Shown here: positions 16,214 through 18,345 of the stretch, piece by piece
How the letters are laid out: every line of letters starts with the position of its first letter
How positions within the stretch are numbered: position 1 is the first letter of the stretch
Assembly: GCA_018969355.1 (NCBI GenBank)
Contig: JAGWYO010000011.1
Location: forward strand, 1 to 44,222
DNA from: Actinomycetales bacterium
GTDB taxonomy: Bacteria; Actinomycetota; Actinomycetes; Nanopelagicales; Nanopelagicaceae
Direction of reading: 5' to 3'
DNA length: 44,222 nt
Notes under the pieces: model-generated
Databases searched by the model: none
What the model was told of the DNA's origin: nothing
The model's input: the letters and a program-made list of their open reading frames with translations, nothing else
Position numbers and translations under genes: made by a program

Positions 16214-16813
16214 ATGGAAAAATTCATTAAGCACACTGGCACTGCAGTTCCTCTTCGTCGCAGCAATGTTGATACAGATCAGATCATCCCTGCAGTTTAT
16301 TTAAAGCGCGTAACTCGTAGCGGCTTTGAAGATGGATTGTTTTCTGCTTGGCGCAATGATCCGCAGTTTGTATTAAATAAGGCCGAATTCAAGGCTGGCA
16401 CAATTCTTGTGGCAGGCGTTGATTTTGGTACTGGATCATCTCGTGAACACGCAGTGTGGGCGCTGCAGAACTATGGTTTCAAAGTCGTAATCTCTAGCCG
16501 CTTTGCCGATATCTTTCGCGGTAACTCACTCAAAGGTGGTCTCCTTACTGTCATCATCGATCAAAGCGATGTAGAGGCGCTCTGGGCGGCAATTGAGGCT
16601 AACCCAGCTACTTCTGTCAGCGTTGACCTTGAAACTCGCACAGTGAGCTATAACAACGTCGTTGTGCCATTTGTTATCGATGACTACACCCGCTGGCGTT
16701 TAATGGAGGGTCTAGATGACATCGGTTTGACCGTTAAAAACGCTGATTCCATTGCTTCTTTTGAGAAATCTCGAACAACTCTTAAGCCAGCAACGCTTCC
16801 TATTCGCGGGTAA
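16214..16813 (+). CDS. leuD: 3-isopropylmalate dehydratase small subunit
   Basis: Swivelling-domain subunit of isopropylmalate isomerase, 199 residues. Visible features are [16 protein letters not shown] near the N-terminus, [14 protein letters not shown] in the middle and [27 protein letters not shown] before ATG 16214 is a clear ribosome site. It is the last gene of the leuCD operon; an intrinsic terminator follows at 16871-16899. Confidence 0.98.
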
Positions 16814-16870
16814 CTACGGAAAAACAAGCGTAAATCACTGAGATTTAGGTAGGGGTGAGCGTGGTGATGA

Positions 16871-16899
16871 AAAACTCTCAACTTGGAATTGAGGGTTTT
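16871..16899 (+). terminator. Intrinsic terminator after leuCD
   Basis: AAAACTCTCAA (16871-16881) and TTGAGGGTTTT (16889-16899) form an 11-bp stem with one G-T wobble and a 7-nt loop ending in a T-rich arm. It lies 57 nt after the leuD stop. A weaker inverted repeat, TAAATC-ACTGA-GATTTA (16831-16847), precedes it. Confidence 0.75.
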
Positions 16900-17050
16900 C
16901 TACGCATAAAAACAGCGATTTTTCGTAATTTCATTAAAAAATTAATTCGCGACACACCTTCATGAATAGCCTAATCACCCTATAAATACGCGTAAGTTTA
17001 TGAACACGTTAAGCAATTGCTTAACATTTACGCGTAATAAGGGGATTTCA
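16900..17050 (+). promoter_or_regulatory. hup upstream region: AT-rich tract and palindrome cluster
   Basis: An A/T-rich stretch (16904-16948) is followed by a possible -10 (TATAAA, 16981-16986). Then come three palindromes: TACGCGTA (16987-16994), an 18-bp perfect palindrome GTTAAGCAATTGCTTAAC (17008-17025), and TACGCGTA again (17029-17036). The centres are not concentric, so they look like separate protein sites, or a leader hairpin plus flanking sites, rather than one stem. GGGGA (17041-17045) is the hup ribosome site. Confidence 0.6.
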
Positions 17051-17494
17051 ATGAATAAGGCCCAATTCATTGCGGCGTTGGCACCACATTTCAACGACAG
17101 CAAGAAGGAAGCAGCACACGCTGTAGATATCGTTTTTGACACTATTGTTCGCAACCTTGCAAAGGGCGAAGATGTCATGATTAACGATTTCGGTAAGTTC
17201 AAGAAGGTTGATCGCAAGGCTCGCATGGGACGTAACCCATTTACTGGCGAAACAATCAAGATCAAGGCTTCCAAGAAGGCTCGCTTCTTGCCTGCAAAGG
17301 GTTTGAAGGATGTCATCTCAGGTGAGCGCAAGCTCGGACCTGCTCCAAAGCCAGAACCAAAGCCAGTTGCTAAGGCAAAGCCAGTAGCAAAGAAAGCTGC
17401 AAAGAAAGCTCCAGCAAAGAAGGCTGCAAAGAAGAAGGTAGCTAAGAAGGCACCTGCTAAGAAAAAGGTTGCTAAGAAGGCTAAGAAGAAGTAA
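17051..17494 (+). CDS. hup: Histone-like DNA-binding protein HU with lysine-rich tail
   Basis: A 147-residue nucleoid protein. Residues 1-90 form the HU fold, starting MNKAQFIAALAPHF, with VMINDFGKFKKV and the DNA-binding arm around GRNPFTGETIKIKASKKARF. Residues ~100-147 are a Lys/Ala/Pro tail with repeated AKKAPAKK-type units, like histone H1, characteristic of actinobacterial HupB/HupS. ATG 17051 is chosen because it follows GGGGATTTCA and begins at the family N-terminus, although the frame is open upstream to 17000. Expression is probably tightly controlled, given the palindromes upstream and a strong terminator downstream. leuCD-hup order is conserved in actinobacteria. Confidence 0.97.
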   Translation: MNKAQFIAALAPHFNDSKKEAAHAVDIVFDTIVRNLAKGEDVMINDFGKFKKVDRKARMGRNPFTGETIKIKASKKARFLPAKGLKDVISGERKLGPAPKPEPKPVAKAKPVAKKAAKKAPAKKAAKKKVAKKAPAKKKVAKKAKKK

Positions 17495-17510
17495 GCACCG
17501 TAGTTTAGGT

Positions 17511-17540
17511 AACGGGGTCGGCTCACGCCGGCCCCGTTTT
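17511..17540 (+). terminator. Strong intrinsic terminator after hup
   Basis: ACGGGGTCGGC (17512-17522) pairs with GCCGGCCCCGT (17527-17537) around a TCAC loop and is followed by TTT. The GC-rich 11-bp stem (one G-T pair) starts 17 nt after the hup stop. plsC has its own -10 just downstream. Confidence 0.85.
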
Positions 17541-17555
17541 CTTATGCTCATTGGT

Positions 17556-17561
17556 TACTAT
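17556..17561 (+). promoter_or_regulatory. Putative -10 (TACTAT) of leaderless plsC
   Basis: TACTAT ends 7 nt before ATG 17569. It overlaps the in-frame TTG at 17551 that could otherwise be read as a start, and so decides the start in favour of the ATG. Confidence 0.55.
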
Positions 17562-17568
17562 TGCCTAC

Positions 17569-18345
17569 ATGGCGGATTACACAGTTTCATATGCACCGCC
17601 ACAAGGAAAACCTCTTGGAACAAATCTGACCTTTAAAATCTGCACAAAGATTGTGATTCCTATTTTAAATTGTGTGGGCAAGAAGCAATGGCGCGGGGCT
17701 GAGAATATTGTGCAGACCGGCCGGGTAATTGTGGCCAGTAATCACGTTTCGTATTTAGATGTTTTGTTCTTTACCCATTTTCTCTATCGAAGCGGTCGCG
17801 CACCTCGCTATATCGGCAAAGAAGGCGTCTTTAAAGTTCCAGTGATTGGAAAGATTTTGCTAGCTGCTGGTCAAGTTCCTGTTGCTAGAGAAGGCAAAGA
17901 CGCTGCTAAAGCCCTAGAACATGCTCTGAAACTTCTTGAAGCTGGCCACTGTTTAGGCGTCTATCCAGAGGGCACGCTTACTCGAGATCCCAATGGGTGG
18001 CCCATGGTTGCCAAGACCGGTCTTGCACGTCTTGCGATCATGACCAAGTCGCCAGTGATTCCAATTGCGCAATGGGGATCACAGATTGTGATGCCCACCT
18101 ATGAAAAGAAAATAAAGATTTTTCCTCGCACACCTATCAAGATTTTAGCGGGAAAGCCTTTGGATTTATCGCCTTGGTATGGAAGAGAAAATGATGCGCA
18201 AGCGTTAATAGAGGCCACAGCTTTTGTGATGAGAGCAATTACAGATTTACTGGAAGAACTGCGTGGCGAAAAACGCCCAGTTGAGATTTTCGATCCGCAT
18301 ACTTCTACTCTTCCTCGAACTGGAAACTTTAAAAAGAAGCGATGA
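17569..18345 (+). CDS. plsC: 1-acyl-sn-glycerol-3-phosphate acyltransferase (PlsC-type)
   Basis: Membrane-associated acyltransferase that acylates lysophosphatidic acid to phosphatidic acid. The catalytic Hx4D is H59-D64 (NHVSYLD), and the second family motif is YPEGTLTRD near residue 134. About 258 residues. ATG 17569 (MADYTVS) is preferred over the upstream TTG because TACTAT ends 7 nt before it. It begins an operon with gpsA (4-nt ATGA overlap) and ddl (4-nt overlap). In mycobacteria and relatives mutT, ppk and cofC occur in this interval; none is present here. Confidence 0.92.
   Translation: MADYTVSYAPPQGKPLGTNLTFKICTKIVIPILNCVGKKQWRGAENIVQTGRVIVASNHVSYLDVLFFTHFLYRSGRAPRYIGKEGVFKVPVIGKILLAAGQVPVAREGKDAAKALEHALKLLEAGHCLGVYPEGTLTRDPNGWPMVAKTGLARLAIMTKSPVIPIAQWGSQIVMPTYEKKIKIFPRTPIKILAGKPLDLSPWYGRENDAQALIEATAFVMRAITDLLEELRGEKRPVEIFDPHTSTLPRTGNFKKKR

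Follow-up and report, generated by a model that had tools for sequence, protein, structure and literature searches.

A palindrome-rich leader of hup, conserved in the Nanopelagicaceae, is probably a control switch for HU

The leader of hup, the gene for an HU-family protein in a Planktophila-like member of the Nanopelagicaceae, is probably a control switch for HU, judging from what has been kept across its relatives. Two layers of control appear to be superimposed in the hup control region, one acting on the DNA and the other on the transcript, and we give this two-layer reading an even chance. The evidence comes from an RNA hairpin that changes by compensation from genus to genus and from a 12-bp palindrome that recurs at whole helical turns around a putative promoter element.

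The hup locus and its conserved unit

The window, the whole 44,222-nt stretch of DNA that was analysed, is part of a 1.4-Mb genome in which leuC and leuD precede hup. A strong intrinsic-terminator-like hairpin lies 3' of hup, at 17511-17538. Of 101 genomes in the genus 88 gave an HU hit, as did 139 of 151 in the family. Upstream regions were taken from part of the genomes with HU, and 150 distinct leaders were kept from 197 readable loci; genera are labelled g1, g2 and so on, some loci having no genus assignment. The conserved unit covers about 16899-17053 and is larger than the palindrome cluster described in the sequence-only reading of this DNA. Its features, with hup itself, are as follows.

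16899-16910, no strand: U, putative operator copy 50 bp upstream of the box, TCTACGCATAAA, differing from TTTACGCGTAAA at 2 positions
16949-16957, + strand: promoter-region box GCGACACAC, family consensus about GCGACACRC, includes GACAC
16974-16981, + strand: possible anti-Shine-Dalgarno segment AUCACCCU, kept as TCACCC in the window's genus
16987-16997, + strand: left arm of the outer RNA stem, includes the left TACGCGTA, kept mainly as GCGTARRT, the pairing half
17008-17025, + strand: inner RNA hairpin, the 18-mer, with a 7-bp stem and a 4-nt loop, showing covariation
17026-17036, + strand: right arm of the outer RNA stem, includes the right TACGCGTA
17027-17038, no strand: putative right operator copy R, TTTACGCGTAAT, both halves conserved
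17039-17044, + strand: Shine-Dalgarno AAGGGG
17051-17494, + strand: hup, HU-family protein of 147 aa with a lysine-rich tail (PF00216, E 2.4e-27)

The palindromes themselves lie where the sequence-only reading had placed them: two copies of the 8-bp TACGCGTA at 16987-16994 and 17029-17036, 42 nt apart from start to start, and a perfect 18-bp palindrome, GTTAAGCAATTGCTTAAC, at 17008-17025, before hup. The window holds 2 copies of TACGCGTA against 0.20 expected (at least 2 copies in 2 of 100 shuffles), and GTTAAGCAATTGCTTAAC has no second match in the window at up to 3 mismatches, with 0.01 expected. Across the window's genome TACGCGTA is scarce, with 9 copies vs 38 of the reversed control.

Distribution of the leader element

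A covariance model, R1, was built from 31 leaders picked for a clean element. It finds a single place on the hup strand of the window's genome (E 9.8e-18), its other matches there being a weak mirror on the opposite strand (E 0.015) and one at chance level. Within the order, R1 matches 166 of 206 genomes at E ≤0.1, all genomes listed belonging to one family and the listing leaving out 20 of those with no match; within the class, at the same E value and under stricter filters, it matches 27 of 296 genomes and 5 of 105 genera, all in the window's family. Many of the places were compared with hup positions, and those adjoin hup. The confinement of the class matches to the window's family led us to reject a class-wide feature. 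A known Rfam family was likewise rejected as the identity of the element: Rfam 15 gives no match in the window at gathering score, and the four weak ones fall far below the thresholds, with E up to 10. In the one library of open-licence papers searched, no description of the element was found.

The inner hairpin is kept as RNA

In the presumed hup mRNA leader the 18-mer very probably forms a hairpin of 7 bp, which compensatory changes have preserved in most of the genera sampled. The sequence-only reading had offered an RNA hairpin as one option for the palindrome, and covariation together with a bias of G-U over A-C now argues for it. Folded as RNA, region 16980-17070 reaches -23.1 kcal/mol (z -4.5), a value that none of 200 shuffles equals. 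In an alignment of 31 leaders, again picked for a clean element, 96.9% of the cells of the inner hairpin and outer stem are paired, falling to 15-46% when partners are slid by 1-3 columns. Sixteen cells are changed on both sides, which none of 500 shuffles reaches, and four pairs show two-sided change, a count matched or exceeded in 11 of 500. RNAalifold, unaided, gives nearly the same two helices from this alignment. A larger alignment holds the 100 of 150 leaders that were fitted to the covariance model and leaves out g6, g10, g13, g15 and part of g1; two of its 101 rows are reverse-strand matches, and the 99 distinct rows were counted. Across these model-fitted rows pairing reaches 98.7% in the inner helix, where 5 of the 7 pairs have changed on both sides, and 91.1% in the outer helix. 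The inner stems vary in sequence, among them GTTAAGC/GCTTAAC, GTTAGGC/GCCTAAC, GTTAAAC/GTTTAAC, TTGATGC/GCATCAA and GTGAGAC/GTCTGAC.

The type of mismatch and the direction of folding point the same way. Among 1043 inner-stem cells from 149 of the 150 leaders (L119 was dropped), 956 are Watson-Crick, 63 G-U, 4 A-C and 20 other, a count in which related sequences enter many times and for which the stem finder settled on the wrong palindrome about six times (L039, L044, L063, L064, L072, L087). Most G-U cells trace to a single closing pair in g1 and g2; tallied by named genus and position in the stem, G-U outnumbers A-C by 11 to 3, or by 6 to 3 when g10, g13 and g15 are left out. Of the 150 leaders, 121 fold better as the sense strand than as the antisense, and 27 fold worse. 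After shuffle correction the figures are 120 vs 30, with sense ahead on average in 14 of 16 named genera and antisense ahead in g9 and g11. Leader folds have a mean z-score of -2.7, below -2 in 100 of 150, and genus means of only -0.6 to -1.5 are seen in g2, g6, g9, g10, g13, g14 and g15.

For most genera, roughly 10-20% of shuffled leaders give an equally good best 7-bp stem, so the case for the hairpin is carried by covariation and not by its mere presence. The best stem is at chance level in g6 (0.7 of shuffles as good) and g15 (0.9), and weak in g10 and g13; on this control the differing hairpins of these four genera were set aside as proof of an RNA. Compensatory changes thus keep the inner helix, keep the outer helix only partly, and do not extend to the most divergent genera.

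The outer stem and the left arm

The two TACGCGTA copies are able to pair together, forming an outer stem around the inner hairpin. In 110 of 142 leaders the left and right arms form a stronger duplex with each other than the mean of cross-genus pairings; the genus averages of g2, g6, g8, g9, g10 and g14 are weaker than that mean. The outer stem is less certain than the inner one because its changes are mostly one-sided and of the G-U type, and U, as DNA, tolerates the same A-to-G variants. What has been kept of the left copy is GCGTARR alone, its half pairing with R, so that this copy resembles an arm of an RNA stem more than a further operator. In a g1 subclade, among the rows listed, the outer stem is made by other, shifted sequences. 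In g13 (L124-L127) a leader's own arms form a much stronger duplex than cross-genus arms do (-9.6 vs -3.9), through sequences unlike those of g1; read from the letters, the g13 arms are GGCG/CGCC or GGCU/AGCC.

These observations bear on a purely DNA-based account, in which U, R and the 18-mer are all protein sites and the RNA fold is a trivial outcome of repeated palindromes. Two operator copies are necessarily able to pair as RNA, g6 and g15 have hairpins no better than chance, and the helical phasing and turnover of U and R, described below, also agree with such an account. It is nevertheless rather unlikely, as it does not foresee an inner palindrome that changes by compensation both within and between genera, the excess of G-U over A-C, the better folding of the sense strand, or a left copy that keeps just its pairing half.

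Operator copies U and R and the GCGACAC box

Of the two TACGCGTA sites, relatives keep the full palindrome only at the right one, which extends to TTTACGCGTAAA. R is present at ≤2 mismatches in 120 of the 137 leaders scored, its halves about equally conserved and its distance from the box 75-80. This count omits the 13 leaders, of 150, that have no box inside 110 nt, including the leaders in which an insertion separates R from the Shine-Dalgarno; in six of these, R lies at 77-78 after the box. A further copy, U, overlooked in the sequence-only reading, occurs at ≤2 mismatches upstream of the box in 95 of 145 leaders, compared with 0.4 expected from base shuffles. Its distances to the box are confined to 28-29, 39-41, 49-52 or 60 bp, rising in steps of a helical turn as the sites of a DNA-binding regulator should (17 genus-distance combinations; Rayleigh R 0.88 for a 10.5-bp period). 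The palindrome is therefore repeated in helical phase with the box, which we take to be a promoter element. U is absent, at more than 2 mismatches, from all sampled g2, g4, g7, g10, g13, g14 and g15, and g6 has no box. Some relatives with a degenerate or lost R carry a perfect 12-mer U (L028, L030, L031, L076, L111, L113).

On this pattern of conservation and spacing, the 12-bp palindrome is very probably a DNA operator. The sequence-only reading had envisaged a dimeric regulator on same-face sites formed by the two TACGCGTA copies and had looked to relatives for their conservation. The regulator idea finds support for U and the right copy instead of the TACGCGTA pair, and looping, which it had also suggested, would fit U and R better than the two TACGCGTA. 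Relatives do keep the 18-mer hairpin and the right copy; the left palindrome is not kept, for which reason two equal TACGCGTA operators were rejected.

The box keeps a distance of 40 or 41 to the left arm in 90 of 90 leaders that have both (60 of 150 are unscored, 47 having no GCGTA there and 13 no box), a fixed distance that would fit a leader transcribed ahead of the start codon. A TGGAC motif stands 3' of a GCGACAC or CCGACAC box in hup promoters of g4, g10, g13 and g15 (e.g. L091, L121, L125, L129), and is also seen in g3 and some g1, there alongside TCACCC. The pattern TGCGACACRC occurs twice in the window's genome, neither place informative, and misses the window's own box, which is preceded by C. 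The WhiA motif is GACAC, which on its own is very common (available text of PMC3781837 and PMC4850268). The hup box has GACAC in its promoter region and is longer, at about GCGACACRC; in the main text of either paper hupS was not found. Because GACAC is so common, WhiA at the hup box would be only a lead.

An account built on RNA only would make the leader a structured element of translational control, the TTTACGCGTAAA symmetry in R being a by-product of pairing and U incidental. Covariation, the G-U bias and the strand asymmetry all speak for it. We regard it as unlikely, however, because U recurs ahead of the promoter box (95 of 145 leaders) and stays in helical phase, and because the right half of R is conserved although outside g1 it finds little to pair with in the left arm.

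Operator copies elsewhere in the genomes

A search of 25 genomes gives 41 places with exact TTTACGCRTAAA: 22 at hup, 8 before an rRNA promoter, and the other 11 in different or unchecked positions. The sole exact TTTACGCRTAAA of the window's genome lies away from hup, where U and R have 2 and 1 mismatches. The rRNA promoter is located 3' of a tyrosyl-tRNA synthetase gene (one locus) and about 380 nt before 16S rRNA (two loci). A pattern search recovered it from 15 of 151 genomes, a biased sample; within it, 9 of 10 g1 promoters have a copy of the palindrome 74-75 bp ahead of the -35, of which eight differ from it by 1 mismatch and one by 2, and none of the five pattern-found g4 promoters does. 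The g1 copy reads TTTACGCATAAA, in one case TTTACGCACAAA (L259-L261, L267-L269, L272-L281).

Two other settings were seen. In L151, L152 and L155, which are the window's genome and two near relatives, a gene for an extracellular solute-binding protein (PF01547, as checked in L152) has a perfect TTTACGCGTAAA in the neighbouring intergenic space. One g8 genome has a perfect TTTACGCGTAAA immediately ahead of its cytochrome c oxidase subunit III gene (PF00510; L143:1501-1512).

Predicted masking of the Shine-Dalgarno

TCACCC is conserved in g1, 26-31 nt after the start of the box. For AUCACCCU to be part of the RNA, transcription has to start no later than this segment, and the pairing predictions assume a start at box+25. 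Under this assumption the predicted mean unpaired probability of the g1 Shine-Dalgarno is 0.11, rising to 0.32 when the upstream segment is shuffled and to 0.79 when it is removed; 62 of 64 g1 leaders fall below their own shuffles. For the window the predicted values are 0.08, 0.47 and 0.95, and its leader, 16974-17053, is predicted to fold at -25.8 kcal/mol (z -5.5) into a helix with a one-sided bulge. In genera other than g1 the predicted masking is small, absent, or derived from one or two leaders. From these modelled folds, it is about an even question whether the CACCC segment masks the ribosome site in g1.

HU itself could be the ligand, its dimers binding the bulged hairpin, or a DNA cruciform, and so closing the ribosome site. 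HU is not known to be sequence-specific, however, and binding of that kind leaves U and R unexplained. Two things agree with the idea, namely the one-sided bulge of the leader helix and the binding of HU to rpoS and dsrA RNAs reported in the available text of PMC6105893, by virtue of which HU feedback on its own leader is possible. We judge such autoregulation distinctly unlikely. A transcription attenuator or an RNA thermometer is highly improbable: a stable hairpin does precede hup, but the leader has no G+C-rich stem with a T run (the sole terminator-like site in 16700-17600 is the one 3' of hup), and in three leaders modelled between 5 and 45 C the predicted Shine-Dalgarno pairing stays closed.

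A model for hup control

The simplest account of these observations would have a regulator occupy its site in two or more places around the promoter, the leader forming a true RNA hairpin in most of the family and R taking part in both layers. A putative dimeric regulator would bind the 12-bp palindrome TTTACGCRTAAA twice: at U, which precedes the promoter and keeps to one face of the helix as counted from the GCGACAC box, and at R, where the leader ends. It would control transcription through contact with RNA polymerase or through bridging of U and R. The transcript, presumably starting upstream of the left arm, would fold into a long hairpin, made of the inner stem-loop and the outer left-right stem, that adjoins the Shine-Dalgarno. 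In the window's genus this fold would pair the Shine-Dalgarno with CACCC, lowering translation until some signal opened it. In its fullest form, the model has one 12-bp sequence read twice, as a DNA operator, whose regulator would also bind ahead of the hup promoter and, in part of the genus, ahead of the rRNA promoter, and as the RNA 3' arm that masks the ribosome site, so that HU would be set at both transcription and translation and coupled to rRNA synthesis. We put this full form forward tentatively, as possible though doubtful in its entirety.

Relation to known systems and significance

Autoregulatory leaders of the ribosomal-protein type have a conserved fold directly before the Shine-Dalgarno of a gene for a nucleic-acid-binding protein. 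The hup leader is similar in its conserved fold, the Shine-Dalgarno directly after it and its nucleic-acid-binding product; it differs in being a candidate element with no Rfam match, confined to one family among the genomes searched. In GalR/LacI systems, palindromic operators lie whole helical turns apart around a promoter. U and R resemble such operator pairs in being palindromic sites at whole-turn spacing, whereas at hup one putative operator, R, doubles as an arm of an mRNA stem. The nearest published control of an HU ribosome site that we found is that of Salmonella hupA mRNA, whose translation is controlled by the ProQ-dependent sRNA RaiZ (available text of PMC5391140). The proposed control of hup would be like it in acting on HU synthesis at the ribosome site of the 5' UTR with an mRNA stem-loop involved. 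The two cases differ in that RaiZ is an sRNA acting in trans and the candidate masking segment of the hup leader lies in cis, within a covarying leader, and in that hupA is from a gammaproteobacterium and the hup leader from an actinobacterium.

The Nanopelagicaceae, very small actinobacteria of fresh water, have small genomes, mostly of 1-2 Mb, and most of the records listed are metagenome-assembled. If the model is true, a regulator site shared by HU and some rRNA promoters would offer a handle on how chromosome packing is tied to growth in these bacteria. The hup region would also be a natural test case for telling apart DNA-operator and RNA-structure constraint acting on the same bases.
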